From Alteraurantiacibacter aestuarii (lineage in GTDB: Bacteria > Pseudomonadota > Alphaproteobacteria > Sphingomonadales > Sphingomonadaceae), in contig NZ_WTYY01000002.1 in the NCBI RefSeq assembly GCF_009827405.1, positions 372,001-436,000 on the forward strand: a stretch of DNA of 64,000 nucleotides, written 5' to 3'. The first letter of the stretch is position 1. Each line of letters opens with the position of its first letter. The translations under genes were made by a program, and so were the position numbers. Positions 6,156 through 64,000 of the stretch are shown piece after piece. The notes beneath the pieces were generated by a model. That model was not told where the DNA came from and did not search any database. It worked only from the letters and a program-made list of their open reading frames with translations.

Positions 6156-6167
6156 CCGATCATGCGA

Positions 6168-7031: not shown

Positions 7032-7077
7032 GACTGCTCTCCTGTAAAGGGCGCGATTCGCGTCCCTGTGGGCTTGA

Positions 7078-7129: not shown

Positions 7130-7141
7130 CCCCGTTGCACG

Positions 7142-7552: not shown

Positions 7553-7599
7553 GGCAGCCCATTCCCTAAGTCTTGCACAAAGACCCCTGGGAGCACGAA

Positions 7600-9564: not shown

Positions 9565-9570
9565 TAATTT

Positions 9571-9592
9571 CCCCTCCGGGTCGCTGGAGGGG
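9571..9592 (+). promoter_or_regulatory. leader hairpin that pairs with the ribosome binding site
   Basis: CCCCTCC at 9571-9577 is complementary to GGAGGGG at 9586-9592, which is also the only Shine-Dalgarno sequence for the gene starting at 9601. Pairing would close the ribosome binding site. It could alternatively act as a weak terminator for acsA, but no T-tract follows. Confidence 0.4.
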
Positions 9593-9600
9593 GAATAATC

Positions 9601-10008: not shown

Positions 10009-10035
10009 TCGCGCCTTGCCGATGGAGGGCGCAGC

Positions 10036-10698
10036 ATGATCCTTTCCCTCGCCACAAGGCGAACAGGCATCTGGTCCGCCGCCGCTTCGCTGGCTTTCAG
10101 CCTGGCCTATATCATCGCCCAGCTGTTCGAATGGGCGGGGATGCTGGGTTCTGGCGGAGGGCCCAACGCTTCAAGCACGGCGCTGGGCATCTTCCTGCTG
10201 CTCGCGCCATCGTTGCTGCTCGGCCCTGCCTTTGTGGTGCTGTGTGCCGCGCTGCACGTCAGCGCCCCTGCTGATCGCAAGGTGTTCACGCTGGCGGGCC
10301 TGGCCTTTGCGATCATGTATGCGACGCTGACCGGCATGGTCTATTTCGTCCAGCTGACCTTTGTCGCCCCGCGCATCGCCAGTGGCGAAACGGCAGGCAT
10401 AGAGCTGCTGCTGTTCGTCCCTTACGAATCCTTCCTGTTTGCCATCGACCTGCTGGGCTACAGCCTGATGAGCGCGGCCACGCTGATCGCCGCATTCGGC
10501 CTGCCGCTGTCATCGCGCGCCAAATTCGCCAGATTTGCGATGATTGCCAACGGTGCGATCCTGCCGTTCCTGGCCCTGCAAATGGCCTTCCCCGTGCTGA
10601 TCTGGCCAGCGGCCGCATGGGCGATCACCTTTCCGCTGGCGATGGCGGCGATCCTCAATATGTTCCGCGCAACGGCGCAGGGAGAGCAAGAGCCATGA
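10036..10698 (+). CDS. polytopic membrane protein of unknown function
   Basis: The 220-residue protein has about six membrane helices, starting with TGIWSAAASLAFSLAYIIAQLFEW and ending with WAITFPLAMAAILNMFRA. A GGAGGG sequence lies 8 bases before the ATG. Its stop overlaps the next start (ATGA at 10695-10698), which implies translational coupling with the glutathione transferase. It resembles small uncharacterised membrane proteins that are widespread in bacteria. No catalytic motif is apparent. Confidence 0.75.
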   Translation: MILSLATRRTGIWSAAASLAFSLAYIIAQLFEWAGMLGSGGGPNASSTALGIFLLLAPSLLLGPAFVVLCAALHVSAPADRKVFTLAGLAFAIMYATLTGMVYFVQLTFVAPRIASGETAGIELLLFVPYESFLFAIDLLGYSLMSAATLIAAFGLPLSSRAKFARFAMIANGAILPFLALQMAFPVLIWPAAAWAITFPLAMAAILNMFRATAQGEQEP

Positions 10699-11327
10699 TC
10701 AAAATCTACCACGTCCCCAATTCGCGCAGCCAGCGCGTCGTCTGGCTGATGGAGGAACTGGGAGAAGACTATGCGCTGGAGAAATTCGGCATTCCGGTGC
10801 CCGACAGCTTCCTGAAGGTGAACCCGCTCGGTTCTGTGCCGACCATCGAGGATACCGATGCGCAAACCCCCATCGTGATGTTCGAGAGCCTGGCGATCCT
10901 GCAATATCTCACCGGGCGGCGGCTGGTGGCGGGAGAGGCAAAGGCGGCAGGCCTTACCACCGGCCCCATGCCCGATCCCGCAGCCTACGCCGAGCACCTG
11001 CAATTCCTGCATTTCGGCGAGGCGGACCTGGCCACGCCCATCGGCACGATCTTCCGCACCCGCATCTTCACCGGGGAGCAGAGCAATGCCACGATCCAGG
11101 ACCAGCTGGGCCAGCTGAAAAAGCGCATCGCCTATCTGGACGATCATCTGGCAGACGGGCGCGATTATGTGACCGGAGCGCGCTTCACCATTGCCGATAT
11201 CTCCATCGGCTATGCCTTCCTGCTGGCGGAATTCACCAAATGCGAAGCGGTGCTTCCCGGTCACGTGGTCGCCTATTGGCAGCGCTTGCAGGCGCGGCCG
11301 GCATACCAGCGCGCGCAAGAAGCCTGA
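10695..11327 (+). CDS. glutathione S-transferase
   Basis: The 210-residue protein has an N-terminal thioredoxin-fold domain (MIKIYHVPNSRSQRVVWLMEELGEDY, then NPLGSVPTIED and the FESLAILQYL glutathione gamma-glutamyl site). An all-helical C-terminal domain follows, with the FTIADISIGYAFLL capping motif near residue 165. Glutathione transferases conjugate or reductively cleave hydrophobic electrophiles; in sphingomonads some cleave lignin beta-aryl ethers (LigE/F/G). This one shows general GST features and no feature that identifies it as an etherase. Its ATG lies inside the stop codon of the preceding membrane gene, so a linked function is likely. Confidence 0.85.
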   Translation: MIKIYHVPNSRSQRVVWLMEELGEDYALEKFGIPVPDSFLKVNPLGSVPTIEDTDAQTPIVMFESLAILQYLTGRRLVAGEAKAAGLTTGPMPDPAAYAEHLQFLHFGEADLATPIGTIFRTRIFTGEQSNATIQDQLGQLKKRIAYLDDHLADGRDYVTGARFTIADISIGYAFLLAEFTKCEAVLPGHVVAYWQRLQARPAYQRAQEA

Positions 11328-11395
11328 CGAACCGTCTGGCCAAGCGACTGTAAAGCTGATTAACTCCCCGCCTGAGAGATTCTTGGGAGGGAATA

Positions 11396-12412
11396 ATGAT
11401 CCGACAGATTCGTCTGGCAACTGCTGTTGCCGCAATGAGTTTTGCCAGCACTCTGGCCGTGCCGGCATCGGCGCAGGTGGCCGGGGTGCCGCTGCCGCAA
11501 TATGAATGCCAGCGCGAATGCCTGGAAAATTTTGTCGAGCGCTATGTCCAGGCAATGGCCGATGGCACGGTGTCCGATGACCTGTTCGCCCGCAGCGTGC
11601 GCTTCACCGAAAACGGCGTGGAATTGCCGCTGGGCAATGAAGGTCTGTGGGCCACCACCACGGGTGCCGGCACTTACCAGCTGATCGTTCCCGACGTGGA
11701 AACGCAGCAGGTCGCCGCTCTGCTCACCGTCAGGGAGCAGGCAAACAGCTCTGCCACCGGCCCGCAGCGCGATCCGGAGCCTGTTGGGGTGAGCCTGCGC
11801 CTGCGCATCGATGCGGACGGCAAGATCTCCGAAATCGAACAGATCGCCGCACGGCCCGATCGCCCGCTGGGCGCGAATGCTGCCCCGGCTGGACCGTTTG
11901 GCAATACCGGCGAGATGGTGGAAGCCATGGGATCGCCCAACCCGGCCTATCTCACCGCCGTTCCCGCAGGCGAGCGCCACACGCGCGCCGAACTGGTGGA
12001 AATGGCCAGCGCCTATTTCGAGGCGGTGGAGCGCAATACCGGCAATGATTACTACCCCTTCACCGACGACTGCATCCGCTATGAAAACGGCATCGTCACC
12101 GCCGGGCCGGAAGGCTCTGGCGCGCGCGCCGGTTGCCGCCAGCAGCTGGAAACCACGCTGATCGGCGCGGTCACATCGATCCGCGATCGCCGCATTGTGG
12201 CGGTGGACCGGGAACGCGGCGTGGTGTTCGCCTTCGCCTTCTTCGACCACCGTCCGATCAACTGGAGCTGGCAGCTGGGCGAATTGTTCAAGATCGACCA
12301 GGGCAAGATCAGCCATATCGAAGCGATCTTCATCCGCGGCCCATACGGCATGTGTTCCGGCTGGAGCACCTATGAGGCCTGCCGCAGCGAAGAACCGCAG
12401 GACATTCGCTGA
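11396..12412 (+). CDS. secreted NTF2/SnoaL-like protein
   Basis: The 338-residue protein has a Sec signal peptide (MIRQIRLATAVAAMSFASTLAVPASA, cleavage after about residue 26). The mature part starts near YECQRECLENFVERYVQAMADG, the opening helix of an NTF2-like fold with paired Cys, and contains RFTENGVELPLGNEGLW. The second half (about 195-330) repeats the fold pattern with ASAYFEAVERNTGNDYYPFTDDCIRYENG. It is clearly related to the secreted protein at 23845-24780 and more loosely to the next gene. The role is unknown; the fold can isomerise, hydrolyse or bind small molecules. A GGGAGGG site precedes the ATG. Confidence 0.8.
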   Translation: MIRQIRLATAVAAMSFASTLAVPASAQVAGVPLPQYECQRECLENFVERYVQAMADGTVSDDLFARSVRFTENGVELPLGNEGLWATTTGAGTYQLIVPDVETQQVAALLTVREQANSSATGPQRDPEPVGVSLRLRIDADGKISEIEQIAARPDRPLGANAAPAGPFGNTGEMVEAMGSPNPAYLTAVPAGERHTRAELVEMASAYFEAVERNTGNDYYPFTDDCIRYENGIVTAGPEGSGARAGCRQQLETTLIGAVTSIRDRRIVAVDRERGVVFAFAFFDHRPINWSWQLGELFKIDQGKISHIEAIFIRGPYGMCSGWSTYEACRSEEPQDIR

Positions 12413-12433
12413 ACACTTCTGGGGGGACAAGAC

Positions 12434-13342
12434 ATGCTGAAGAAACTGACCACCATCGCCGCGCACTCAGTCGTAGCGCTGGCGGCCCTTGCCATCTCCG
12501 CGCCCGCAATGGCGCAGAATGGCCCGCCGCCCAGCCCGTTCGCGCCGTTGCAGGATCATCCGACCTGCGACCGTGACCAGCTGAAAGCCGCCACCACGGC
12601 TTTCGTGGAGGCACAGCGCAGCGGCGACACTTCCGCCCTGCCGCTGGCATCGAACGCGCATTACCTGCAGAACATGGAAACGGTGGAGGCGTCCGCAGGC
12701 CTGTGGAACACCGCCCTGCCCATCGCCCATGCGATGAGCTTTCACGATGACCGCCGGTGCAAGACCTTTACCGAAATCATCGTGACCGAGGGCGGCCATC
12801 CCTATGTCATCGGCACGCGGCTTTACATGCATGACGGGGAGATCATCCGCGTCGATTCCATCGTTACCGAGCAGGGTGACTGGCTGTTCAACGCCAATGC
12901 CTATCTGCTGTATACGCAACGAGAGAACTGGGGACCGCTGACCCCTTACCAGCGCACCTCGCCATCGGAAATGATCCGCGGGGCCAATGCCTATCTGGAT
13001 GGCTTTGCCGACAAGTTCACCGATATTCCGTGGGGCACGCCCTGCGCCCGGCTGGAAGGCGGTGCCTATACCAACCGGGAAGGCCGGGCGGATGCCAGCT
13101 GCGAAGTCGGCATGCCGGGCGGCGTGCTGTATATCGTCAATCGCGATTACCTGATCGATGAGGAACTGGGCGTGATCAACGTGTTCTGCCGCTTTGGCGG
13201 ATCGACCGGCGGCCCGGATTCGCACAGCTTCCGCTATATCGATGGCAAGTTCCGCCAGGTTCACACGCTCACCGCCATTCCCGGCCCGCAGGCCAATGAT
13301 GAAGGCGGGATGATGATGGGCCAGGCCGATCCCAACGCCTGA
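12434..13342 (+). CDS. secreted NTF2-like protein, paralogue
   Basis: The 302-residue protein has a clear signal peptide (MLKKLTTIAAHSVVALAALAISAPAMA, cleavage near 27). The body starts with TCDRDQLKAATTAFVEAQRSGDTSALPLA and has two NTF2-like segments, the second around RGANAYLDGFADKFTDIPWGTPCARLEGGAYTN. Conserved Cys residues suggest disulfides in the periplasm. It follows the previous secreted protein by 21 bases and shares its general plan, so both probably come from one transcript. The function is unknown. Their position just before ligAB suggests a link with aromatic compounds, but this is inference. Confidence 0.75.
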   Translation: MLKKLTTIAAHSVVALAALAISAPAMAQNGPPPSPFAPLQDHPTCDRDQLKAATTAFVEAQRSGDTSALPLASNAHYLQNMETVEASAGLWNTALPIAHAMSFHDDRRCKTFTEIIVTEGGHPYVIGTRLYMHDGEIIRVDSIVTEQGDWLFNANAYLLYTQRENWGPLTPYQRTSPSEMIRGANAYLDGFADKFTDIPWGTPCARLEGGAYTNREGRADASCEVGMPGGVLYIVNRDYLIDEELGVINVFCRFGGSTGGPDSHSFRYIDGKFRQVHTLTAIPGPQANDEGGMMMGQADPNA

Positions 13343-13412
13343 CAAAAGCACCATAAGTGCGTCTTAACTGCACCGGCAGTTGCAGTCTTTGCAATTGCCA
13401 ATGACTGGCTTG

Positions 13413-13445
13413 ATATCACCGCCCCTGTTACGGGGGCGGTGATAT
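13413..13445 (+). terminator. 13-bp perfect stem-loop upstream of ligA
   Basis: ATATCACCGCCCC at 13413-13425 pairs perfectly with GGGGCGGTGATAT at 13433-13445 around a 7-base loop. It lies between the NTF2-like gene (stop at 13342) and ligA (start at 13466). It could end the upstream transcript, but the following TCATATAAAAGG is not a T-tract and contains the ligA ribosome binding site. A leader element controlling ligAB is an equal possibility. Confidence 0.5.
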
Positions 13446-13465
13446 TCATATAAAAGGTCTGCACC

Positions 13466-14712
<1,247 letters not shown>

Positions 14713-51682: not shown

Positions 51683-53275
51683 CTAACTGCTAAGCGCAAA
51701 GCCCTCATATCCGGCAGCGGCAATTTCATCGCACTTTGCCCGGTACGCGCCCACACCGCCGACATAGGGCATGAACACATCGCGCCCATCGCGGGTGCGG
51801 CCCTTGTACCAGCTGTCCGCACGCGGGAAGAGCGTGGTCTGCGCCACTTCGTCCACATGGCGCATCCATTCCTGCTCGGCATCGGCATCGGCTTCGATCA
51901 CCCGCTTGCCGCTGGCGCGCATATCGCAAAGACAGCGCGCTACCCATTCCACATGCTGTTCGATGGAGACGACCACGTTGGACAGCACAGACGGGCTGCC
52001 CGGCCCGGTGATGGCAAACATGTTGGGAAAGCCGGACACGGTCAGGCCCAGGAAGGCGCGCGGCCCATTGGCCCATTCCTCGCCAATCTGCTGGCCGCCC
52101 CGGCCCCGGATGTCGATCGCCAGGACGGCGCCGACGCAGGCATCGAAGCCGGTGGCCAGCACGATGGCATCGGCGGCATAGCTGGCCTTGTCCGTGATCA
52201 CCGCATGGGCGGTGATATCGACCACCTTTTCCTCGCGCACATCGACCAGTTCGACATTGTCCCTGTTGAGCGCATCGTAAAAGCCGATTTCGCTGCACAG
52301 CCGCCGCGATCCCAGCGGATAGTCCGGGGTCAGCTTGCGCGCATCATCGGGATCGCGCACCGCATCGGCAATCTTGCCGCGCGCGAATTTCGCCGCCAGT
52401 TCGTTCGATGTTTCATCAAACAACAGGTCCTCGAAAGCATTGAGAAGTCCGGTGGTGCCGGCATTCCAGGCCTGTTCCAGCCGTTCCTTCAGCGCGGCGG
52501 GTGCAAACGTCTTGGCGCTGCCGGGCATGGGCGGGGCGGCGAAGCCCAGCGGTGAATGGCGCGCCACGTCGCGCTTTTCGCGGTAGGTGGCCTTGGCCGC
52601 CTCCTGCTCGCCATCTTCGAGCGGTCGGTTATTGGCCGGAACGGCATAGCTGGGCGTGCGCTGGAATACGGTGAGATGGCCGACATATTCGCTCATCGCC
52701 GCCACCGCCTGAATGCCCGAGGAGCCGGTGCCGAAATGGCAGACGGTCTTGCCCTTCAGGTCCACGCTATCGTCCCACTTGGCCGTGTGCAGCACCTTGC
52801 CTTCGAACTTCTCCAGACCGGGCAGGTCGGGCATTTTCGGTTCGGAAAGCGCGCCGGTGGCCAGGATCAGGAACTGCACGTCAAAGCTGCCGCCGGTGTC
52901 CGTCTCCACCTGCCAGCGCGATGTTGCTTCGTCCCAGTGCGCGGCGGTGACGCGGGTGTCGAATGCGATGTCCCGCCGCAGATCGTAGCGGTCGGCAACA
53001 TGATCGAGGTAGGAGAGGATTTCCCCCTGCGCGGCATAGCGCTCTGTCCATTCCCACTCCTGCTCCAGCTGCGGATCGAAGGAATAGGAATATTCGAGGC
53101 TGGGAATATCGCAGCGCGCGCCGGGATAGCGGTTCCAGAACCACGTCCCGCCCACGCCCGATCCGGCCTCCACCACCTGCGCCGAAAAGCCCTCCTGCCG
53201 CAATTTGTGCAGCATGTAGAGGCCCGAAAATCCCGCCCCTACGATCAGCGCATCCAGCTTCGCAGAATCAGGCAT
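51683..53275 (-). CDS. Baeyer-Villiger monooxygenase (class I flavoprotein)
   Basis: The 530-residue FAD/NADPH monooxygenase has the FAD site GAGFSGLYML (residues 13-22), GGTWFWNRYPGARCDI, and the BVMO fingerprint F-x-G-x3-H-x3-W as FEGKVLHTAKW (157-167). The NADPH site is FGTGSSGIQ. Class I BVMOs convert ketones to esters or lactones with one O atom of O2. The 8-base overlap with the esterase suggests a ketone-ester-alcohol route, as in cyclohexanone or hydroxyacetophenone pathways. Substrate unknown; it could oxidise aryl ketones, which a separate cluster in this window also seems to handle. Confidence 0.88.
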   Translation of the reverse strand: MPDSAKLDALIVGAGFSGLYMLHKLRQEGFSAQVVEAGSGVGGTWFWNRYPGARCDIPSLEYSYSFDPQLEQEWEWTERYAAQGEILSYLDHVADRYDLRRDIAFDTRVTAAHWDEATSRWQVETDTGGSFDVQFLILATGALSEPKMPDLPGLEKFEGKVLHTAKWDDSVDLKGKTVCHFGTGSSGIQAVAAMSEYVGHLTVFQRTPSYAVPANNRPLEDGEQEAAKATYREKRDVARHSPLGFAAPPMPGSAKTFAPAALKERLEQAWNAGTTGLLNAFEDLLFDETSNELAAKFARGKIADAVRDPDDARKLTPDYPLGSRRLCSEIGFYDALNRDNVELVDVREEKVVDITAHAVITDKASYAADAIVLATGFDACVGAVLAIDIRGRGGQQIGEEWANGPRAFLGLTVSGFPNMFAITGPGSPSVLSNVVVSIEQHVEWVARCLCDMRASGKRVIEADADAEQEWMRHVDEVAQTTLFPRADSWYKGRTRDGRDVFMPYVGGVGAYRAKCDEIAAAGYEGFALSS

Positions 53276-54170
53276 GGCTGGCTCCCGAAGTGTGGTTGCG
53301 CATGAAGGCACCTGCTGCGTCCAGCGCGGCGCGCCCTTCATCCAGCATGAAGGCGAAGCTTTGCCAGACATGCGGCATGTCCGGCCATATCTCCAACTGC
53401 ACATGCGTGCCCGCCGCCCCGGCCCGGGACGCCACCATCACCGCATCATCGAGCAATATCTCCGCCGAACCGACCTGCACCAGCAGTGGCGGCAGGCCTG
53501 ACAGATCGGCGTGGGCGGGTGATGCCAGCGGATCGCCGACGGGCGTTCCGGCAAGATACTGGCCTGCCGCGATATGCAGCCCCTTTTCGGTCAGCGCGGG
53601 ATCGGCCTGAGCCTTGCTCTGCATGCTGCCTCCGCTGCAGGAAAGATCCGCCCACGGGGAAAGCAGATAGGCGGCCGCAGGCATTTCCAGCCCTTCTTCG
53701 CGCAGCTTCACCAGCAGCGACAACGCCAGACCGCCGCCCGCGGAATCGCCCGCGATCACGATCCTGTCCGCCTTCATCCCGCTGCTCAGCAGCGCGCGAT
53801 AGGCCGTCAGCGCATCATCGATGGCGGCGGGAAAAGGGTGTTCGGGCGCCAGCCGGTAATCCAGCGCATAGGTGGGCAGGCCCGCTGCCTGACCGACATT
53901 GGCCGCCAGCCCGCGATACCCCTGCGCGCTGCCCGAAACAAAGGCCCCGCCATGCAGATAGAGTAGCGCACCAGCGCGCGCCGGGCCGGTCTTGCAGTGC
54001 AGTGCGGCCACGCCGCCCAGCTGCACGTCATTGAAGGAAAAGCCGGCGTCCACCGGCATGGTGGCCAGCAAGGCCTCGAATTCGTCACGCGCCCTGGACA
54101 GATCGCCGGAAAAATCCGGTCCGCCCGCTCGCATGCCTGCAATCAGTTCCTGCAAGGCTTCGCTCGCCAT
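53268..54170 (-). CDS. alpha/beta-hydrolase esterase (HSL family)
   Basis: The 300-residue hormone-sensitive-lipase-like esterase has the oxyanion motif LHGGAFVSG (about 72-80), the nucleophile elbow GDSAGGG (Ser143) and the late Asp/His pair with MPHVWQSF. It most likely hydrolyses the ester made by the BVMO encoded in overlap downstream. Similar BVMO-esterase pairs are known for hydroxyacetophenone and cyclic ketone use. The start ATG at 54170 has a GGAGGA-like stretch shortly upstream. Confidence 0.88.
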   Translation of the reverse strand: MASEALQELIAGMRAGGPDFSGDLSRARDEFEALLATMPVDAGFSFNDVQLGGVAALHCKTGPARAGALLYLHGGAFVSGSAQGYRGLAANVGQAAGLPTYALDYRLAPEHPFPAAIDDALTAYRALLSSGMKADRIVIAGDSAGGGLALSLLVKLREEGLEMPAAAYLLSPWADLSCSGGSMQSKAQADPALTEKGLHIAAGQYLAGTPVGDPLASPAHADLSGLPPLLVQVGSAEILLDDAVMVASRAGAAGTHVQLEIWPDMPHVWQSFAFMLDEGRAALDAAGAFMRNHTSGASHA

Positions 54171-54277
54171 GCCTTATCCTCCCCATGTCGCGGGCCTTGC
54201 TGGCCCGTCTGGAGAGGATCATACGCGATTGAGCCTGTGTGGGAAGTCTGCCGCGATGGTGGCCGCGATGGTGTTTG

Positions 54278-55447
54278 TCAGACGGGCAACCCCACGTAGT
54301 TTTCCGCAATGCTGGTCTGCGCTGCCACGCTGGTGGCGATGTAGTCCAGCTCTGCCACCTGCATGGCGCGTTCAAAGGGGCCATCGTCGGGAAAACGGTG
54401 CATCAGCTTGGTCAGCGACCAGCTGAACCGTTCGCACTTCCACACCCGCGCCAGCGCCGTGTCCGAATAGGCCGCAATGGCATCGGCATCATTGGCCTTG
54501 AAGAAGCTGGTCAGCGCAGCGGCGGCATAATGCACGTCGCTGGCGGCAAGGTTCAGGCCCTTGGCGCCCGTTGGCGGCACGATATGCGCCGCATCGCCGC
54601 ACAGCATCAGCGAACCATGCCGCATCGGCGCAAACACATAGGATCGCAGCGGGGCGATGCTTTTTTCCAGCGCCGGTCCGCGCGTCATATTGGCCGCCGC
54701 TTCGGGGCCAAGGCGGATCGCCAGCTCATCCCACAGCCGGTCATCGCTCCAGTTTTCCACCCGCTCCGTCAGCGGCACGTCGATGTAATAGCGGCTGCGC
54801 GTGGGGCTGCGCATGCTGGCCAGGGCAAAGCCGCGCTCATGATTGGCATAGATAAGTTCATGGTTGCACGGCGGCACATCGGCCAGGATGCCCAGCCAGC
54901 CAAAGGGATAGACCCGCTCATACTCCTGCCCGGCGGATGCGGGGATGGCCTGGCGGGTGGGGCCATAAAAGCCATCACAGCCCACAATGATGCGGCAATC
55001 GATACGCTGGGGCGTGTCGCCCTTGTTGTAGGTGACATAGGGCGCATCGCTTTCCACATCGTGCAGCGCGGTATCAGCGGCTTCATAGATCACCTGCAGA
55101 TCGCGCGCTTCGGCGGCGTCCATCAGGTCCTGGGTCAGCTCAGTCTGGCCATAAACCACCACCTGCTGGCCGGTCAGGGCCTTGATATCGATGCGGATCA
55201 GCCGCTCGCCATCGGCCAGGTTGAAGCCATCGTGCGGCAGGCCCTCCGCCTTCAGCCGGGCGTCCAGCCCAAGCCGTTCCATCAACGATACGGTGATGTT
55301 TTCCAGCACGCCTGCGCGGATGCGGCTGAGCACATAGTCTGGCGTTCGCCGTTCCAGGATAACGCAGTCCACGCCCTCTGCCCGCAGCAAATGGCCCAGC
55401 AAAAGTCCCGCCGGACCCGCCCCGATGATGCAAACCTGTGTTTTCAT
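54278..55447 (-). CDS. pobA: 4-hydroxybenzoate 3-monooxygenase
   Basis: The 389-residue FAD hydroxylase converts 4-hydroxybenzoate to protocatechuate. It has the FAD motif GAGPAGLLLGHLL, the GCDGFYGPTR (DG) motif and GDAAHIVPPTGAKGLNLAASDV (GD). RRTPDYVLSRIRAGVLE is the stretch typical of PobA. Length and motifs are those of PobA rather than of general phenol hydroxylases. The product is the LigAB substrate. No adjacent PobR-type regulator is seen. The start ATG at 55447 has AGGCAGGA upstream. Confidence 0.92.
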   Translation of the reverse strand: MKTQVCIIGAGPAGLLLGHLLRAEGVDCVILERRTPDYVLSRIRAGVLENITVSLMERLGLDARLKAEGLPHDGFNLADGERLIRIDIKALTGQQVVVYGQTELTQDLMDAAEARDLQVIYEAADTALHDVESDAPYVTYNKGDTPQRIDCRIIVGCDGFYGPTRQAIPASAGQEYERVYPFGWLGILADVPPCNHELIYANHERGFALASMRSPTRSRYYIDVPLTERVENWSDDRLWDELAIRLGPEAAANMTRGPALEKSIAPLRSYVFAPMRHGSLMLCGDAAHIVPPTGAKGLNLAASDVHYAAAALTSFFKANDADAIAAYSDTALARVWKCERFSWSLTKLMHRFPDDGPFERAMQVAELDYIATSVAAQTSIAENYVGLPV

Positions 55448-55618
55448 GTCCTGCCTGATAGCTGCCTGTTCCAGATTGACTGACGATGTGTCCGCCCGCG
55501 GCGCCAATGTCCAGCCCGATGCAGGAGGAGCGCCGATCAACCGCCGCGATTGGAGCGGCGCGGCGAAGTCTGGTAATAATTCACGGTCAGCGTGCTGATT
55601 CGAACGGGGGAGACATCT

Positions 55619-57154
55619 GTGGCCAATAGAACAGCGATAATCCTGATTCACGGTATTGGTGAACAGATCCCGATGGAAACACTTTCCGGCTTTGTCGATA
55701 CTGTGTGGAGCCGCGACATGTCGCTGATTACACCCAGCCGCGTCGATCCCAGAACTGGCAAGCCACGGCAGGAAAACGCCGCGTGGAGCAAACCTGATGA
55801 GCGCAATCGCAGTTTCGAACTGCGACTGATCACCACCGAATCGCGCGGATCGGGCCATTCGCAGCGGCGGTTCGACTTTTTCGAATATTACTGGGCGCAT
55901 CAGGTTACCGGCACCAGCTTCGAGATGGTCAAGGACTGGCTGTTTGGCCTGATGTGGCGCAATCCGTTCACCAATGTGCCGCGCGGCCTGATCCCGGCGT
56001 GGCTGTTAATGTGGGTGATCACGCTGGGCTTCGTGGCGATATCGATCCTGGCCGGCATGGCAATCAGCGATACGCCCATCGACCCGCAAATGACCGGCAT
56101 TGCGGCAATCGACTGGATATTCCGCCTCGCCGCCGGGGTGCAATCCTGGCCGGGGTGGATGACGGCATTCGTCTGGGCAGTCCTGAGCGGGATTGGCGCC
56201 TTCATCATCAAGGTCATGATCAGCCATGTCGGCGATGTGGCGCGCTATGTCCGCGCCCAGCCCCGCAACATCGCCATTCGCCAGGCAATCCGCGAGAATG
56301 GCGTGCGCCTGCTGGAAGAACTGATGGGTGTGGGAGAGGATGGATCGGCTGGCAAAAGCCGGTACGACAGGATCATCGTGGTTGGCCATTCGCTGGGCAC
56401 CATCGTGGGCTACGATATCCTGACCCACGCCTTTGGCCGGCACAATGACCGGATCGATCCCGAAAAGCTGAAAGGCTTCCGCCAGCCCCGCCGCGCGCAG
56501 ATGGAGGAGATGATCCGCAGCGCGCGGGCAGGTGGCAACTTCGATCTCGATGAATTCCGCAAATTGCAGGCGCTGTGCCGCCGCGAGCTCAACGCCTTGG
56601 GCAATCCGTGGATCGTCAGCGATTTCGTGACCATGGGATCACCCCTCACCCACGCCGAATTCCTGATGGAAAAAGACCGCGCGGCGGTTTCAAAGGCCAA
56701 GGACAAGCGCGTGCTGCCCGCCTGCCCGCCGGTGATGGAATATGACGGCACCACCAAGAAACTGCATTTCACCTATCGCACCGGCAAGGTGAAGGGCGAA
56801 GGTGTTACCCACGATCTGGAAGCCCCGCGCGTGCCGCACCACGCCGCGCTGTTCGCCTTCACCCGCTGGACCAATATCTTCTCTCCCCTGCGCGGCGTGG
56901 TGGGCGGCGATATCGTTTCCGGGCCTGTGGCGGATATATTCGGGCTGGACGCGGGCGAGACGGAAAAGCCCGTCAGCGGCATCAGGGATATTGCCGTGCT
57001 TCCTACCGCTGGCGGTACGCCGCAAGACCGCAAGAAGCGCTGGTTCACGCATTTGCTCTACTGGAACATGGACGCTGCGAAAACCGGGGATGCGGCACAC
57101 GTCCCCGCCCATATCCAGGCGCTGAGGGATGCGCTGGCGCTGAAGGAGAACTGA
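55619..57154 (+). CDS. membrane alpha/beta hydrolase of unknown function
   Basis: The 511-residue protein begins MANRTAIILIHGIGEQIPMETLSGF, with an HGIG oxyanion motif at about 11-14. Two membrane segments follow (about 122-149 and 178-201). The nucleophile elbow GHSLGT lies at about 256-261, giving Ser258. It resembles membrane-associated lipase-like hydrolases. GGGGAG lies 6 bases before the GTG start at 55619; another GTG at 55592 would add 9 residues. It is convergent with the HNH/ATPase pair, with a short tandem repeat between, so a defence role is conceivable but unproven. Confidence 0.7.
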   Translation: MANRTAIILIHGIGEQIPMETLSGFVDTVWSRDMSLITPSRVDPRTGKPRQENAAWSKPDERNRSFELRLITTESRGSGHSQRRFDFFEYYWAHQVTGTSFEMVKDWLFGLMWRNPFTNVPRGLIPAWLLMWVITLGFVAISILAGMAISDTPIDPQMTGIAAIDWIFRLAAGVQSWPGWMTAFVWAVLSGIGAFIIKVMISHVGDVARYVRAQPRNIAIRQAIRENGVRLLEELMGVGEDGSAGKSRYDRIIVVGHSLGTIVGYDILTHAFGRHNDRIDPEKLKGFRQPRRAQMEEMIRSARAGGNFDLDEFRKLQALCRRELNALGNPWIVSDFVTMGSPLTHAEFLMEKDRAAVSKAKDKRVLPACPPVMEYDGTTKKLHFTYRTGKVKGEGVTHDLEAPRVPHHAALFAFTRWTNIFSPLRGVVGGDIVSGPVADIFGLDAGETEKPVSGIRDIAVLPTAGGTPQDRKKRWFTHLLYWNMDAAKTGDAAHVPAHIQALRDALALKEN

Positions 57155-57157
57155 TCC

Positions 57158-57190
57158 GGGAACTGGCGGGGAACTGGCGGGGAACTGGCG
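57158..57190. repeat. 11-bp tandem repeat between convergent genes
   Basis: AACTGGCG recurs at 57161, 57172 and 57183 as three copies of an 11-base unit GGG-AACTGGCG. It lies between the stop of the membrane hydrolase and the stop of the HNH gene. It is too short and uninterrupted to be a CRISPR. Confidence 0.85.
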
Positions 57191-57194
57191 CACC

Positions 57195-58100
57195 TCAGGC
57201 CAGCATCGCCTCAATCTCGCCCTGCAATTTGCGGCGGAAAGCGCGCGCCAGACCGGCGAAGGGATTTTCCGCGCTGCACGCCTGCTTCACCTCCAGCATA
57301 TCCTCCACCACGGTCTGCATCAGTTCAGCGGCGAGTTGCTCATCTTCCATGGCGGAGACGCGGTTGAGCCGGTCGATGATCTTCTTGCGCTTGAGCCGCA
57401 GGCCATTGAGCACCGTCACCCGCGCCTCTGTCAGGAAGCGGCGGTTGAGGCCCAGAATCTCGATGGTCGCCTCCGCCCGCGGATCGCCGCCGCGCGGTTT
57501 GACGGTGGATATGGAGCGCTCGAACTCCCACTCGAACAGGTCTTCAGGATCGGTATCGCACGGATTGAGCAGCAGCGGATGTTCGCCCGCCATATCGGCC
57601 TGGAAATCCAGCACCCAGGCATTGTTTTCAACGGGAAAGCGGTTTTTCTTGCCGGTGGTCCTGAGCTTCTTTTCGCGCAGCTCGCGTTCGATATCGGCTT
57701 CGGACAGGCCGGCCTGGTGGATCAGCTGACGGCGAGACTGGTTGCAGTGCTGGCAGCTCAGCAGCAGGTTCTCCCACGCCATCGCCAGCCACCAGTAACC
57801 GGGATGCTCCACCCCCGCCTTGTCCGCATCGGTGATGCCCTTCTTGGGCCGGTAATGCTCCACATCGCCGTCAAAGCCGCCGCTCGTCAAAATCTCGCAA
57901 TAGGCGCATTTTCCGTGATGCATGGCGATCAGCACGTCTTTCACCTGGGCGTGGGCATAGACCTCGAACTTCGGCGATTTGGGAAGCTTTCCCTCGGCCG
58001 CCAGATAATCGACGATTGCCTGCCGCTCCCTGGCGGCGGGACTTTCCGCATCGCCAAAGTCGAGCACGGCGGGGGTGGGTTCGCGTTCGATCCTGATCAC
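57195..58100 (-). CDS. HNH endonuclease, PtuB-like
   Basis: The 301-residue protein has an HNH nuclease core with CAYCE (Cys65, Cys68), EHYRPKKG (Glu81, His82, Arg84) and LSCQHCNQSRR (Cys116, Cys119, Asn120). EHPLLLNPCDTDPEDLFEWEF and ATIEILGLNRRFLTEAR follow. This matches PtuB, the nuclease of the Septu defence system, which works with the ATPase PtuA. The GTG start lies 11 bases after the ATPase gene stop, so both are one transcript. It is a second HNH module next to the one fused to the ATPase. Confidence 0.82.
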   Translation of the reverse strand: MIRIEREPTPAVLDFGDAESPAARERQAIVDYLAAEGKLPKSPKFEVYAHAQVKDVLIAMHHGKCAYCEILTSGGFDGDVEHYRPKKGITDADKAGVEHPGYWWLAMAWENLLLSCQHCNQSRRQLIHQAGLSEADIERELREKKLRTTGKKNRFPVENNAWVLDFQADMAGEHPLLLNPCDTDPEDLFEWEFERSISTVKPRGGDPRAEATIEILGLNRRFLTEARVTVLNGLRLKRKKIIDRLNRVSAMEDEQLAAELMQTVVEDMLEVKQACSAENPFAGLARAFRRKLQGEIEAMLA

Positions 58101-58111
58101 TGCGCGCGCCC

Positions 58112-60421
58112 CTAATCCGACAGCAGCCCAGACAGGGCCTGCTTCATCATGCGCTTGCGATCACCGTCCCGTACCGGTGCGAGCGGCAGGGTATCGATCT
58201 CGGTCCCTTCGGATATCACCGACAGCGCCGCAGCATTGACCTGCTCCTCCATCGTGGTGCCAACCATCATGCGCTTGTCGATCTGCGCAACCAGTGTCTT
58301 GCGCTCATCCTCCTCGGCGGCGGTGCGGCCCACTTTCTTGGCGAGGAAATGATAGCGCTCCACCTTGGCGTCGGTTTCCGGATCGGTGGAGCCCAGGCCG
58401 AAGAATTCGGACGTGAGGATCTGTTCGGCGCGCATGCCCTGCACATTGGGCAACTCCTCCAGCGTCTCCACCCGGGCGTTGTCCTCATTGCGCTGGAGCA
58501 CGAACACCTCACCCTGCTGCATGCCGCGCAGGCACAGCGGATCGTGCGTGGTGAGGATGAACTGCACCTTGGGAAAGGCCTCTCGCAACAGGCCGACGAT
58601 CTGCATTTTCCAGCGCGGGTGGAGGTGCGTTTCGATCTCATCCACCAGCACCACGCCGTGGGCATCCTCCAGATTATCGTAATGGTGGAACAGCTCACGG
58701 ATGATATCGACTGACAGGGCGACGATGGATTTGTAACCGACGGACATCTTGGAAAGCGGTGTGCTGCCCTGCGGCGTATCGATCAGGATACGCTCCCCGT
58801 CGCGCAAGATCTTGGCGTCATCATCCAGCATCAGCACCACTCGCAGCGCGCGCACGGCGGCATCGAATTTCTTCTCGTCATCCAGTTCCAGCAGCCACTG
58901 GATGGGATTGGGGATCACCATCATCGGATCGAACAGCGATCGCACCCGCCATGCTGGCGCGCGGTATCGGCGGGAGGTCCTCTTCACGAAGAACCGGCGC
59001 GGCCCATAGGCGAGCAATATCTTGGACGGGGCCAGGCTGCCGCCGAAATGGCACTGCTTGCCGCCGCCCTCCAGATAGGCGCCCTGCTCCTGCCCCAGGA
59101 AGGAGACGGACACCTGCAACGGGTCCGTGGCCAGCACATCCCAGTTATCGAAATCGGGCCGGTGCTGGAATTCGGACGGGGTGATCGTCTCATCGTCCAG
59201 CAGCTTGTCCAGCTCAGCCACTTCGCCCGTGCCCAGCAGCGCCATGGCAATCGCTTCCAGGACGGAGCTTTTGCCCGTGGCGTTCTCGCCCAGGATCAGC
59301 ATGCACGGAACGCGGCGCAAATCCTGCGTCTGGCTGGGCAGTTCGAATTCGATCCCCGCCAGCGCCTTGAAATTGCTGATGGTGACCTTCTCCAGCGGCA
59401 GTTCCGCGGCGGGCAGGTCCTGCTTGCGGACGGTGCGCGAGGGCTTTCTGGGGCGCTTGGCCGGTGCGGGCGGCGGCGGAGCGGTTGAGCCTGTCTGCGC
59501 CTCATCTTCAAGGAACGGGCGGAGCAGGTCGTAACGTTCGGACCCCTCCAGCTTTTCCAGCAGCCCCAGCATCACCGGCAGGGTAGAGTTGCCCGGAAGC
59601 CATTCGTTCGCCTGCCGCATCAACGCCAGCGTCACCGCCCCGCGATGCGGCAGGATCAGCGAATTGTCGAAGCCGATGAGATAAGAAGCCCAGCCGTGTT
59701 CAGCGCCCGTGGGAATGGCTTCGACATGCTCCAGATCCTTGAGCAGGATCGATGCCATGAAGCGCATGGCCTGCTTGCGCGCGGAGACAAGGTCCGCGCG
59801 GTTGAGGCCCAGCATTTCAATCGTGGCTGCACCGCGCTTGCCCGCCGCAAAGGCCGTTCCACCGGGAAGGAATTGCAGCTCGTCCGCTATGCCATCGAAG
59901 GTAGGGTCCAGCAGCAGGGCATGCTCCATCCGCACCGGGTCCCCGACCATTGATGAGGTGAGCGATCTGCTGTTTTCACCATCGCCGCGCAATTCACGGA
60001 TCGACGCCCGCAGCCGTCCCCGCTCGCCCATAACCCAGAAACGATTGCCCTTGTGGCGATTACAGGCAGCGCAAACGGGCAGCAGGTTCTCCCACTCATA
60101 GGCCAGCCACACATAATGCAGCTGGCTGGTCGCCCCGCTCTCATCGGCGGCCCCGCCCAGCGGGCGGTGATGACCCACGCCCAGGCCCGATGTGCTGGCG
60201 GGCGTTTCACAATAGGCGCATATCTCGCCGAAGCCCTCAAACACCGCGCCGGTGATATCGGGATGGTTCAGAAGATCGGTATCGATCCGCATGCGCCGCT
60301 GACTGATCATCTTCTGATCTTCCAGCCCGAGATAGCTCATGACCTCATCCAGCGCCGCCCGCACCCGAGTAGAATCGAGCATCTTGGGCCGTTCCATCTG
60401 ACTGCGGTCGAAAAAGCGCAT
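58112..60421 (-). CDS. HNH-ATPase fusion, Septu PtuA-like with extra N-terminal HNH
   Basis: The 769-residue protein has two modules. The first is a PtuB-like HNH domain (about 60-215): CAYCE (Cys68, Cys71), GHHRPLGG (His84, His85), LPVCAACNRHKGNRF (Cys117, Cys120, Asn121), EHALLLDP and ATIEMLGLNR. A Pro-rich linker at about 311-326 leads to an AAA/ABC-type ATPase (about 340-680). Its Walker A is GENATGKSS (378-386), its Walker B VVLVDEIETHLHP (590-602) and its H-loop TTHDP (624-628). A KMSVGYKSIVALS segment takes the ABC-signature position. PtuA ATPases sense phage infection and control the HNH nuclease. The fused HNH is unusual; a standalone PtuB-like gene follows. AGGATC precedes the ATG. 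Confidence 0.85.
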   Translation of the reverse strand: MRFFDRSQMERPKMLDSTRVRAALDEVMSYLGLEDQKMISQRRMRIDTDLLNHPDITGAVFEGFGEICAYCETPASTSGLGVGHHRPLGGAADESGATSQLHYVWLAYEWENLLPVCAACNRHKGNRFWVMGERGRLRASIRELRGDGENSRSLTSSMVGDPVRMEHALLLDPTFDGIADELQFLPGGTAFAAGKRGAATIEMLGLNRADLVSARKQAMRFMASILLKDLEHVEAIPTGAEHGWASYLIGFDNSLILPHRGAVTLALMRQANEWLPGNSTLPVMLGLLEKLEGSERYDLLRPFLEDEAQTGSTAPPPPAPAKRPRKPSRTVRKQDLPAAELPLEKVTISNFKALAGIEFELPSQTQDLRRVPCMLILGENATGKSSVLEAIAMALLGTGEVAELDKLLDDETITPSEFQHRPDFDNWDVLATDPLQVSVSFLGQEQGAYLEGGGKQCHFGGSLAPSKILLAYGPRRFFVKRTSRRYRAPAWRVRSLFDPMMVIPNPIQWLLELDDEKKFDAAVRALRVVLMLDDDAKILRDGERILIDTPQGSTPLSKMSVGYKSIVALSVDIIRELFHHYDNLEDAHGVVLVDEIETHLHPRWKMQIVGLLREAFPKVQFILTTHDPLCLRGMQQGEVFVLQRNEDNARVETLEELPNVQGMRAEQILTSEFFGLGSTDPETDAKVERYHFLAKKVGRTAAEEDERKTLVAQIDKRMMVGTTMEEQVNAAALSVISEGTEIDTLPLAPVRDGDRKRMMKQALSGLLSD

Positions 60422-60582
60422 GGGTGATCCTGCCTCTGGCGTGAATTGCGGTCACCGTGCAGGTTACGCCTCAATCGCGAGGCTGCAAGTTTGAAGTATA
60501 GCGCCAGGGCGATTTGTGACGGTTAAGTAAAACCGCGCATTATTTGATTGCCGGGGTGAGAAACGGGCTTTCGCTGCCGACT

Positions 60583-61479
60583 TCAATCCTTGCCCGTGCT
60601 GGTCATCAGCGCGTAGCCCGCTTCGATCACCGCGCCCTCGATTATGCCATCGGCCAGCCGGTAATGCGGCGGGGCGAACACGACTATGGTGGAGCCATGT
60701 TCGAACCAGCCCATCTCCTGCCCGCGTGAAAAGGCGAATGCGCCTTGCCACACGCCCGCCACGCTATCGCGCACATTGCGGATGGGATCGAGGAAGGGCA
60801 GGCGGATGCTCGCCACCAGTATCGCCGCCACCGGCACCAGCAGCAGCCGGTCGCCAGCGGCAAGGGGGCCAGCCAGCCGCCCGGCCAGCCGCACGCTGAT
60901 CGGCGCGCGTTCATTGCGGCAATAAAGCCGCTCCACCCGTTTGAGCGCCACCGGGTTCACATTCCACGTATCGCCGGAGATATAACGCACCTGCTCCACC
61001 ACCAGATCGGCGGGCGCGTGGAAGCGGTGATACATGCCCGCTGTCAGCCGCAGGGTGACGAACTGCCCGCCCTCAAACTCGCTTGCCAGCGCCGCATCGC
61101 CCAGCAATTCGGCCAGTTCATAATCGAAGCCCTTGATCTGGTGCGCCTGCCCCGCCGTGACCGTTCCAGTTGCGCCGACGATGGCATCGCACGGGGACGC
61201 CAGCACGGCGGGATCGTCCACAAACGCCCGCGCGCCGGGCTTCAGCCTGCGGGTGAAAGCATCGTGCAGGCTGGAAAATCGCGCTTTCTCCGCGTGTGTC
61301 AGATCGACGTCACAAAACAATTGCCAAAGGGCGATCGAGGGCAGCCGCACCAGCGGATGTTCGCGCTTGCTGAACCAGCCCATGAAGCGGGTCGCGGCAT
61401 GGCGCGGGATGCAGTTGGTGAGGAGGAAGTTGAGATCCTCCTGCGCGGTCAGGCGCTTGATGGCGGATCGCAGACTCAT
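60583..61479 (-). CDS. psd: phosphatidylserine decarboxylase
   Basis: The 298-residue pyruvoyl-dependent enzyme decarboxylates phosphatidylserine to phosphatidylethanolamine. YHRFHAPAD carries the conserved His pair. GDTWNVNPVAL and the C-terminal WFEHGSTIVVF give the self-cleavage site Gly-Ser (Ser263 becomes the pyruvoyl group). The cleavage motif reads HGST where Escherichia coli has LGST. GGGAAG precedes the ATG. It is divergent from the aminotransferase, 35 bases away. It probably supplies phosphatidylethanolamine for the methyltransferase at the window end. Confidence 0.88.
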   Translation of the reverse strand: MSLRSAIKRLTAQEDLNFLLTNCIPRHAATRFMGWFSKREHPLVRLPSIALWQLFCDVDLTHAEKARFSSLHDAFTRRLKPGARAFVDDPAVLASPCDAIVGATGTVTAGQAHQIKGFDYELAELLGDAALASEFEGGQFVTLRLTAGMYHRFHAPADLVVEQVRYISGDTWNVNPVALKRVERLYCRNERAPISVRLAGRLAGPLAAGDRLLLVPVAAILVASIRLPFLDPIRNVRDSVAGVWQGAFAFSRGQEMGWFEHGSTIVVFAPPHYRLADGIIEGAVIEAGYALMTSTGKD

Positions 61480-61514
61480 GGCGGGCTTCCCGGGCTGAAT
61501 GTGAAGGAGCATTT

Positions 61515-63185
61515 GTGAAGATATCTTCGATTGGCTGGGCCTTGCTGGGCAGTGCGGCGGCGCTGGTGACATTGCGCCCCGCCCGCCGCCGCCTCCAGCT
61601 CTCCGCCGCCAAGCACAAGGGGCTGGTCGGCCATGTCCGCATGGCCAAGCGCGCGGCGCGGCTGATCCCGCACTATGCCTTTGACGAGGGCAATTTTGCC
61701 AACGCCGATGATGCGCCTGCCGATGTGGCGGCACAGCGGCAGGAAGCATTTGCCGCGCTGGCGGACACCTATCGCGCTCGCTTCCCAAAATCTGCCGAGA
61801 TGAGCGCACAGGCGGCGCACAGCATCCCCGATGTGGACTTCACCAGCACTTACCGCGTGCCATTCCAGTTCAGCGCGCTGGTGCGGCGGCATCTGTCTTC
61901 CGGATCGTTCTATCAGGCATCGTCCGGCGTGAAGCTGACCGATCTGGACGGCAATGCGTTTTACGACCTGACCGGCTCCTATGGCGTCAATCTGCTGGGC
62001 GTGGATGCGTACCGCGATCTGGTGGCGCAGGGGATTGCCAGCACCGCCGATCTTGGCCCGACCCTGTCCGGCCTGCACCCGCTGGTGCTGGATAATGTGG
62101 CGCGGCTGAAGGAAATTTCCGGGCTGGATGCGGTGTCCTTCCACATGTCCGGCACCGAAGCGGTGATGCAGGCGGTGCGGCTGGCACGCTATCACACCGG
62201 CCGTGCCCGCGTGGTGCGCTTTGCCGGGGCCTATCACGGGTGGTGGGGCGATGTGCAGCCGGGCATCGGCAATCCCGTTCCGGCAGACAACACGCTGACG
62301 CTGGCAGACATGAGCGAGGCGGCGCTTAAGGTGCTGGCAACGCGCCGGGATATCGCCTGCGTGCTGGTCAATCCGTTGCAGGCAATGCATCCCAACAGCA
62401 ATGCGCCGGGCGATTCCACGCTGGTGACAGGCCGCAAGCAGGCCAGCGTATCGCGCGCCGATTACGCCGCATGGCTCGCCCGCCTGCAACACACCTGCAA
62501 CAAGGCCGGGATCGTGCTGATCATGGATGAGGTGTTCACCGGCTTCCGCCTGGCGCAGCGCGGGGCATGCGAATATTTCGGCGTCACGCCCGACATGGTC
62601 ACCTATGGCAAGACGCTGGGCGGCGGACTGCCGGTGGGCGTGGTGTGCGGGCGTGCCGCCCTGATGAAGCGTTACCGCGAGGACAAGCCCGCCGACATCT
62701 GCTTTGCCCGCGGCACGTTCAATTCCCACCCCTATGTGATGGGCGCGATGGACGCCTTCCTGCGGTACATGGAAACGCCCACGGGCATGGCGCTGTATGA
62801 CGGGCTGGACGCGCGCTGGAATGACCGCGCCGACAGCCTCAACGCGCAGCTGGAGGCTGGCGGATACCCGGTTCGGATCAACAATCTGGGCACCATATGG
62901 ATGGTCTGTTTCACGCAGGCGGGCCGTTATCACTGGATGCTGCAATTCTATCTGCGCGCGCAGGGACTGGCGCTGAGCTGGGTGGGATCGGGCCGCTTCA
63001 TCTTCAGCCTGGCCTATACCGATGATGACTTCGCCGAGGTCGAGCGCCGCTTCCTCGCCGCTGTGCAGCAGATGCAGAGCGGCGGCTGGTGGTGGCGCGC
63101 CAGCGAAGGCGAGGCGGGCGACAAGGCGATCCGTCGCCGGCTGAGGAACGAAATGATCGGCCACGTGCTGGGCCGCTCCGCCTAA
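61515..63185 (+). CDS. class III aminotransferase with membrane-anchored N-terminal extension
   Basis: The 556-residue PLP enzyme has an extra N-terminal region (about 1-110) with a membrane segment (ISSIGWALLGSAAALVTL). The aminotransferase core has SGTEAVMQAVRLAR (210-225), YHGWWGDVQPG, LIMDEVFTGFRL (Asp338) and the PLP lysine Lys366 in TYGKTLGGGLPVG. The core is most like glutamate-1-semialdehyde aminomutase or diamine aminotransferases. A membrane tie and lipid neighbours suggest a lipid or polyamine-linked substrate. The exact reaction is unknown. Confidence 0.78.
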   Translation: MKISSIGWALLGSAAALVTLRPARRRLQLSAAKHKGLVGHVRMAKRAARLIPHYAFDEGNFANADDAPADVAAQRQEAFAALADTYRARFPKSAEMSAQAAHSIPDVDFTSTYRVPFQFSALVRRHLSSGSFYQASSGVKLTDLDGNAFYDLTGSYGVNLLGVDAYRDLVAQGIASTADLGPTLSGLHPLVLDNVARLKEISGLDAVSFHMSGTEAVMQAVRLARYHTGRARVVRFAGAYHGWWGDVQPGIGNPVPADNTLTLADMSEAALKVLATRRDIACVLVNPLQAMHPNSNAPGDSTLVTGRKQASVSRADYAAWLARLQHTCNKAGIVLIMDEVFTGFRLAQRGACEYFGVTPDMVTYGKTLGGGLPVGVVCGRAALMKRYREDKPADICFARGTFNSHPYVMGAMDAFLRYMETPTGMALYDGLDARWNDRADSLNAQLEAGGYPVRINNLGTIWMVCFTQAGRYHWMLQFYLRAQGLALSWVGSGRFIFSLAYTDDDFAEVERRFLAAVQQMQSGGWWWRASEGEAGDKAIRRRLRNEMIGHVLGRSA

Positions 63186-63207
63186 ACCAAATTCGGCTGA
63201 GCCGGGA

Positions 63208-63834
63208 TCAACTGGCCTTGCCGGGCCGCCATGCTGCCGCGCGCCGCGCCAGCTGGCCCGGTGCACGGCAATAGAGGCGAAAATCGTTGAACGGGTCGGT
63301 CAGGATCTTGGTCGCCCAGACCAGACCCGTCTCCACATCGCGGATGAAGAACAATTGCACCGTGCGGAACACCAGTCCGCCCACGCCCAGCGCCAGCCAC
63401 ATCATGCCAAGGTTCTCCAGGAAACTCATCAGTCCGGCATGCGGCGTAACCAGTCCGAACAGCGATGGATTGGCCAGCAGCAGCACCGGGCTGAACGCCC
63501 ACAACCCCATCAGCACCACCTTGCGCGCAAGGTTGTAACCGACCTTGATCTCTTCCTTGTATTCATGGCTGCAATCATTGACCTGATCATAGTCATGCGG
63601 CTCGAAAAAGAAGTGGCCCGCCTGGCGGCTGGTCATCGAAATGCCCCAGCCCAGCAGCGCCGCCAGCCACGGATCGCGCCACACGATCACATAGGCGACC
63701 AGAAAGGTTATCGCGCTGACGAAGTGCAGGCTCTGGTTGACCAGATTGTGATGGTAATAGCGGTGATCGTCCCACCGCTGTTCGCGCAAATGGTCCCGAA
63801 AATGCGCCAGTCTGCTGTCTTCACGAATGTGCAT
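63208..63834 (-). CDS. Mpo1-like / DUF962 membrane protein
   Basis: The 208-residue protein begins MHIREDSRLAHFRDHLREQRWDDHRYYHHNLVNQSLHFVSAITFL, then RQAGHFFFEPHDYDQ. The HHNxxNxxLHF and GHFFFE motifs match the Mpo1/DUF962 family, whose yeast member is a 2-hydroxy-fatty-acid dioxygenase using Fe bound by His residues. Five membrane helices follow. It begins 8 bases after the stop of the methyltransferase gene, so both are read together. The start ATG at 63834 is chosen to keep that spacing. Confidence 0.72.
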   Translation of the reverse strand: MHIREDSRLAHFRDHLREQRWDDHRYYHHNLVNQSLHFVSAITFLVAYVIVWRDPWLAALLGWGISMTSRQAGHFFFEPHDYDQVNDCSHEYKEEIKVGYNLARKVVLMGLWAFSPVLLLANPSLFGLVTPHAGLMSFLENLGMMWLALGVGGLVFRTVQLFFIRDVETGLVWATKILTDPFNDFRLYCRAPGQLARRAAAWRPGKAS

Positions 63835-63842
63835 GAGATGTC

Positions 63843-64000
63843 TCAACCTTCGATCTTTTCGTAACGGAGGAGCGAAAAATGGCCGAGCGGAGGCAGATCG
63901 CGCCGCTCGATCAGGCGCACGCCGGAATTGCGCGCCGCCCATTCCTGATATCGCTTCCAGGGAAATTCGGTGCGCCAGCCCAGCTTGCTGGTGACCGGCA
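63843..64000 (-). CDS. SAM-dependent methyltransferase, C-terminal end (truncated by window)
   Basis: On the minus strand a frame open at the window edge ends at 63843 with PVTSKLGWRTEFPWKRYQEW, followed by RDLPPLGHFSLLRYEKIEG. The GWRTEFPW and PPLGHF(S/T)L segments are like the C-terminus of phosphatidylethanolamine N-methyltransferase (PmtA type). The N-terminal catalytic part is outside the window. Together with psd it would complete a route toward methylated phosphatidylethanolamine or phosphatidylcholine. Identification rests on 52 residues only. Confidence 0.5.
   Translation of the reverse strand, partial: PVTSKLGWRTEFPWKRYQEWAARNSGVRLIERRDLPPLGHFSLLRYEKIEG

Follow-up and report, generated by a model that had tools for sequence, protein, structure and literature searches.

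We analysed a 64,000-nucleotide window of the Alteraurantiacibacter aestuarii genome (contig NZ_WTYY01000002.1, positions 372,001 to 436,000; positions below are those of the window) that holds a Septu-like locus, consisting of two genes, ptuA and ptuB, with a lipase-like hydrolase gene beside them (Table 1). The assembly that contains it is incomplete (2.24 Mb, 70% complete). The original prediction had described an HNH-ATPase fusion with a separate HNH gene 11 bases further on, and both open reading frames (ORFs) were confirmed, on the minus strand and 11 bp apart. The first gene encodes a protein of 769 residues in which an HNH core (CAYCE at residue 68, GHHRP at 83, CAACN at 117) is joined by a Pro-rich linker at about residues 315-330 to an ATPase with Walker A at 378 and Walker B at 590. 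The 301-residue product of the second gene carries CAYCE at residue 65, VEHYRPK at 80 and CQHCN at 116. The prediction was right about the gene pair and the HNH core and overlooked two things: the adjacent gene at 55592-57154 (+), and the missing acid of the tethered HNH, which reads GHHRP where gene 2 reads EHYRP.

Table 1 Features of the ptuAB locus and the adjoining hydrolase gene (positions in the window).
Feature	Position	Strand	Basis or remark
PtuA with N-terminal PtuB-like, putative pseudo-HNH domain, 769 residues	58112..60421	-	PADLOC PtuA1, profile of relatives, predicted model
PtuB-like HNH domain, residues 1-230	59732..60421	-	Zinc Cys retained; catalytic acid and Lys absent; joint alignment
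GHHRP, residues 83-87	60161..60175	-	Gly replaces the Glu of the free enzyme's EHYRP
CAACN, residues 117-121	60059..60073	-	Holds the second pair of zinc Cys and the Asn
Walker A GENATGKS, residues 378-385	59267..59290	-	Lys kept in 81/81 rows
Walker B VVLVDE, residues 590-595	58637..58654	-	DE kept in 81/81 rows
PtuB, free HNH nuclease, 301 residues, motif intact	57195..58100	-	PADLOC PtuB1
VEHYRPK catalytic motif of PtuB	57843..57863	-	Motif scoring
Lipase-like alpha/beta hydrolase, convergent with ptuB	55592..57154	+	GHSLG, HGxGEQ, two hydrophobic segments
GHSLG nucleophile elbow of the hydrolase	56384..56398	+	HSLG invariant in 11/11
Two hydrophobic (likely transmembrane) hydrolase segments	56003-56059, 56165-56221	+	Hydropathy

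The two proteins belong to known Septu families. Gene 1 matched PADLOC model PtuA1 (PDLC00288) at E 9e-209 over residues 1-736, and gene 2 matched PtuB1 (PDLC00328) at E 4e-78 over residues 1-300; because these matches span nearly the whole proteins the pair is not a chance one. The NCBIfam PtuA and PtuB models matched far under their cut-offs (119.6 of 500 bits and 57.9 of 150, respectively). A profile built from 50 relatives found solved PtuA chains at E values down to 3e-34; its N-terminal part aligned with residues 20-190 of solved PtuB chains, at E 9e-11 for the best. Sequence matches of the locus proteins in the PDB also pointed to Septu, and the predicted model of gene 1 (predicted local distance difference test score, pLDDT, 86) gave 50 listed Foldseek matches, all to PtuA of Septu or retron PtuAB structures. 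Given the PADLOC, solved-chain and fold matches, we identify gene 1 as a PtuB-like domain joined to PtuA; the earlier label "Septu-like", and the PADLOC search proposed with it, were thus borne out. Such fusions are matched end to end by three PADLOC PtuA1 models (PDLC00288, PDLC00291 and PDLC00292; PADLOC-DB 2023), and the protein class is therefore already catalogued. PADLOC counts these fusions as PtuA1, and accordingly we file the locus as a variant of Septu type I. The original prediction had been unsure whether the layout was described: it is present in these models, whose output mentions neither a pseudo-HNH nor lipase partners, and the partly accessible Septu literature searched gave no mention or discussion that we found of the fused HNH-PtuA layout, nor a description of either a pseudo-HNH tethered to PtuA or exchangeable lipase neighbours.

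For comparison we studied the best 80 of at least 433 relatives recovered by a scan of genome contigs (numbered with the prefix L). By our criterion a PtuB ORF lies directly downstream of ptuA in 78 of these 80 loci, and the remaining two also hold PtuB sequence, frameshifted into the ptuA ORF in L029 and as a longer ORF overlapping upstream in L099. L029 was considered as a natural HNH-ATPase-HNH single chain and rejected because alignment with L027 shows that its reading frame is not kept through the junction and the PtuB motif. With the window added the fused set comprises 81 rows, of which L030 and L043 were unscorable (split ORF), leaving 79 scored; the free PtuB set also has 79 rows, window included.

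In an HNH active site the first His acts as general base, and the acid and the third residue bind metal. Free PtuB retains these positions: E-H-[YF]-R-P-K is invariant in 79/79 rows, and in 78/79 the second Cys pair is followed by the Asn, the exception (L056) being truncated. The tethered HNH keeps its zinc Cys in 78-79 of the 79 scored rows, WxN in 78-79 and RP in all 79. Its acid is present in 15, Lys in 5, His in 33 (with Arg instead in 40) and Asn in 17, or 18 when L043 is counted. The full acid-His-Asn set survives in 9/79 and at least one of the three is missing in 70; His is lost in 46, kept without Asn in 20, and kept with Asn but without the acid in 4, the window among them. The same pattern emerged when 79 tethered HNH domains were aligned together with 77 free ones, two short free domains having been dropped. 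The window copy, with Gly at the acid position and no Lys, lacks the complete acid-His-Asn active site of an HNH nuclease and retains His84 and Asn121. From these comparisons we judge the tethered domain to be a likely pseudo-nuclease in most scored members, and the window copy to be doubtful. The latter appears to be an intermediate state of motif loss and, since it keeps His and Asn, may have residual activity.

These counts bear on the two-nuclease reading of the original prediction, in which one tethered and one free HNH, both active, would cleave in stages. We consider that reading improbable. It can draw on the retained His84 and Asn121, on the 9/79 relatives with acid-His-Asn, and on the second His of GHHRP, which could in principle replace a ligand. 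Set against this are the loss of catalytic positions in most scored members while fold positions stay nearly invariant, and the window copy, which has neither the acid nor the Lys; with 70/79 tethered domains incomplete and the motif kept in the free HNH, the claim of staged cleavage was not supported. Elsewhere in Septu, protection is lost when PtuB H75/N91 or H53 is changed, according to the accessible parts of the papers (PMC13096335, PMC12935923). A PtuB-like domain that is kept with its catalysis lost is also the expected look of a competitive plug, and the tethered HNH might be an internal plug of this kind, which, like an antitoxin, keeps free PtuB inactive until remodelling by the ATPase. 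We rate this as somewhat unlikely; it would be compatible with the explanation that we prefer, set out below.

The gene that adjoins ptuB encodes a lipase-like alpha/beta hydrolase. GHSLG is present in the window protein, HSLG and HGxGEQ are invariant in 11/11 hydrolases (motifs that we take to be the GxSxG elbow and the oxyanion HG motif), and hydropathy gave at least two hydrophobic segments in 11/11. Judging from relatives, translation more likely starts at the GTG at 55619. The profile match to a diacylglycerol lipase had an E value of 0.08. An 11-bp unit, GGGAACTGGCG, is present three times head-to-tail at 57158-57190, in the gap between the stop codons at which the hydrolase and ptuB genes converge.

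Relatives of this hydrolase immediately adjoin 11 of the 80 fused loci (in L031 as a C-terminal fragment only), lying upstream and co-directional, upstream and divergent (within 449 bp, L020), or downstream and convergent as in the window. Two other families take the same place: Tle1-like phospholipases adjoin 5/80 loci and patatins 8/80, one of the patatins downstream of ptuB. Pfam was run singly on two Tle1-like and two patatin members, and the others were assigned by cluster or tally. Any lipase-like immediate neighbour was found in 24/80 loci (one a fragment), or in 21/73 clusters at 90% PtuA identity. Among the 1103 ORFs picked in the 80 loci, 26 fell in the lipase clusters and 23 of these were immediate neighbours, the three non-immediate ones being in L031, L061 and L070. 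Patatin (7) and Tle1-like (5) were the commonest Pfam families in 68 upstream ORFs, a set to which four were added by hand and from which one was left out.

Canonical PtuA loci served as a control: 20 of them, in 14 genomes belonging to the same class (stretches of 5-14 kb, two with doubtful ORFs). The lipase-family models (five gene clusters, E 1e-5) matched in 0/20 of these loci, and a patatin of another subfamily could escape such models. In Pfam, restriction and helicase families were commonest among 32 control neighbours (both sides, 18 loci), with no lipase family among the 25 listed out of 50 families and, at E 1e-11, none among the 25 listed out of 33, the other eight being single-member families. 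The hydrolase itself was found in 0/384 other genomes of the class and in 4/397 genomes of the phylum, in one of them beside a fused PtuA.

Plasmids repeated the adjacency. The 26 plasmid records that matched the fused protein formed 20 groups, all of which were examined, and 9/20 had an immediate lipase neighbour: hydrolase in 2, Tle1-like in 1 and patatin in 6, five of these six from rhizobia. One further group had a hydrolase 2.9 kb from the fused PtuA, and a 110-residue "alpha/beta hydrolase" annotated near L194 was left out of the count. The PtuA ORF lacks its N-terminal part in three groups (L196, L197 and L205). A reverse search by hydrolase gave six plasmid groups, with the gene immediate to a fused PtuA in three (one of them broken) and near one in another.

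The hydrolases do not follow the relatedness of their PtuAB partners. Across the 11 hydrolase-bearing rows, identities of hydrolase and PtuA correlated with rho 0.29, compared with 0.75 for PtuA and PtuB; the hydrolases of L028 and L063 are 65% identical where PtuA and PtuB are each 30% identical. On the PtuA tree, a quick tree with 21/78 inner branches open, lipase presence changes at least 16 times. A lipase accompanies 21/46 rows in which the tethered His is lost and 3/33 in which it is kept (Fisher 5e-4, window included). Lipase gain as the driver of tethered-HNH loss was tried and rejected, as the association is a raw one only.

We favour, as moderately probable, the reading that the locus is a variant of Septu in which a pseudo-HNH is tethered to the ATPase, a single HNH is active and the lipase arm can be exchanged. 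PtuA would be an ATPase that carries a tethered, degenerating copy of PtuB. This copy would probably play a structural or regulatory part, filling or shaping the site of PtuB, and free PtuB would supply the nuclease activity. The neighbouring hydrolase, predicted to be membrane-anchored, would be an exchangeable second effector. On sensing infection, the PtuAB assembly would bring PtuB to cut nucleic acid and the lipase to damage the cell's own membrane, so stopping phage production. The data show the arrangement of the genes, a loss of motif confined to one of the two HNHs, the repeated occurrence of three lipase families next to ptuAB, and hydrolases related to one another in a way that PtuAB does not mirror; we infer a defence function, the role given to the pseudo-HNH, a lipid substrate, and activation of the lipase by PtuAB. 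More tentatively, and short of an even chance in our estimate, this branch of Septu may be a modular alarm in which PtuA-pseudoPtuB and PtuB switch on an exchangeable membrane lipase, so that killing runs also through the membrane. If this is true, Septu would join the cyclic-oligonucleotide-based antiphage signalling system (CBASS) among sensors whose effectors can be exchanged, and the pseudo-HNH would be a natural starting point for learning how PtuA retains PtuB and lets it go.

The main competitor is a two-gene Septu in which PtuA, with its pseudo-HNH, and PtuB alone act, with the lipases as defence genes in their own right, or as passengers, that occupy the same islands and plasmids. Hydrolase relatives can indeed occur alone, 56/80 loci have no lipase that we found, and BrxL and HamB are likewise direct upstream neighbours of fused loci, one each in 68. 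Against such a system stand the recurrence of three lipase families in the adjacent slot (23/26), and rarely elsewhere in the loci, their adjacency in several orientations, its repetition on plasmids, and the 0/20 result in canonical loci. We hold the two-gene reading to be unlikely, slightly more so than the plug.

Several results weigh against the lipase-armed variant that we favour. No lipase neighbour was found in 56/80 fused loci, and the lipase is therefore optional. The canonical control loci are few and come from one class and 14 genomes. Three of the four phylum genomes with the hydrolase have no fused PtuA within about 7 kb on each side, and two of the six hydrolase plasmid groups have none within the 6-7 kb viewed. 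The link between tethered-His loss and lipase presence is not significant on independent pairs, and the tethered HNH of the window keeps its His and Asn. The window hydrolase is convergent with ptuAB, on the opposite strand, and hence not in the ptuAB transcript. Its Pfam matches are below cut-off (DUF676 at 16.6 bits vs 20.3), its predicted model is weak (pLDDT 55), and the fold matches of that model, mostly lipases and esterases, are not significant (best E 0.8). Finally, none of the four further genes scanned around the locus in the window is a defence gene; they are metabolic or of unknown function.

These four neighbours would also suit a housekeeping locus of DNA or lipid metabolism outside defence. 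We regard this as very improbable given the patchy distribution of the full-length fusion (3/99 genomes, own included), its presence on plasmids, and the CBASS and ABC-three-component genes next to relatives, the latter adjoining L102 and L201. The fused protein had no match among phage records at E 1e-20. For an empty-site comparison no insertion site could be defined: where a relative has homologues of both flank genes, these are widely separated or sit on separate contigs.

Septu is known from cleavage of nucleic acid by an ATPase-HNH pair. The locus shares with Septu type I this pair, its PADLOC PtuA1/PtuB1 matches and intact Walker and PtuB motifs, and differs in that PtuA carries a tethered degenerate PtuB domain, unlike classical PtuA, which has no HNH of its own, and in that a lipase-like gene is adjacent in 24/80 relatives. 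Retron I-A, or Septu type II (Eco7, Ec78, Ec83), has the same PtuA and PtuB families and provides the best solved relatives; no reverse transcriptase was present among the seven proteins scanned at 54278-63942, and, as to the msr-msd RNA of a retron, Rfam gave no match at gathering score in 53000-63500. CBASS has the phospholipase effectors CapV and CapE. These would act alike, as exchangeable membrane-attacking lipases under a sensor, which here would be the PtuAB ATPase; no cyclase was found among the window proteins scanned. As far as the accessible parts of the papers go, Septu is divided into types I and II (PMC8565338), a PtuA6:PtuB2 assembly is described in Septu (PMC12948488, PMC12935923) along with retron-Septu release (PMC12948488), Eco7 PtuAB causes tRNA-Tyr loss (PMC11555353), and ptuXYZ is a three-gene operon in which a PtuA-like protein has other partners (PMC11980606). 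A link between Septu and a phospholipase or lipase, or between PtuA and a patatin-like protein, was not found in the literature searched, which largely lacked subscription papers, and antiphage activity was not mentioned in the Tle1/DUF2235 literature among the matches listed. In PADLOC, no family matched the hydrolase, Tle1-like or c5 patatin proteins tested at E 0.001, and the L098 patatin gave only a weak match to a Phospholipase effector.

Further genes recur around the fused loci. A protein of about 1,280 residues with P-loop-like motifs (e.g. ILADAGAGKT) is encoded directly upstream of ptuA, overlapping or abutting it, in L069, L075, L081, L088, L091 and L092; the L092 copy had no Pfam match at E 0.01 and no PADLOC match at E 0.001. 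In two distant bacteria a HATPase gene (MORC/GHKL-like, identity tested on the L070 copy) is divergent from the fused ptuA (L070, 6339-7907; L090, 6327-7913). In L066 and L098 the patatin and PtuAB genes come after genes for a metallo-beta-lactamase and a putative peptidase (the peptidase scoring under the Pfam cut-off), a pair also found in L079; a serine protease and metallo-beta-lactamase pair lies in the vicinity of L197. On a Phaeobacter piscinae plasmid (L105), a broken hydrolase adjoins fused PtuAB beside CBASS genes (SAVED, ThiF, Mov34 and a nucleotidyltransferase). In L103, from a plasmid of Rhizobium etli Mim1, genes for the hydrolase, a trypsin-like peptidase, a hypothetical protein, fused PtuA and PtuB are co-oriented at 6887-14619, possibly a five-gene version of the locus. 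The genome of the window itself holds a second, canonical PtuA/PtuB-like pair (L153, G000:C3:80500-94500, at 5838-8040 therein) among genes resembling type I restriction-modification systems, an arrangement that L147, L148 and L149 resemble.

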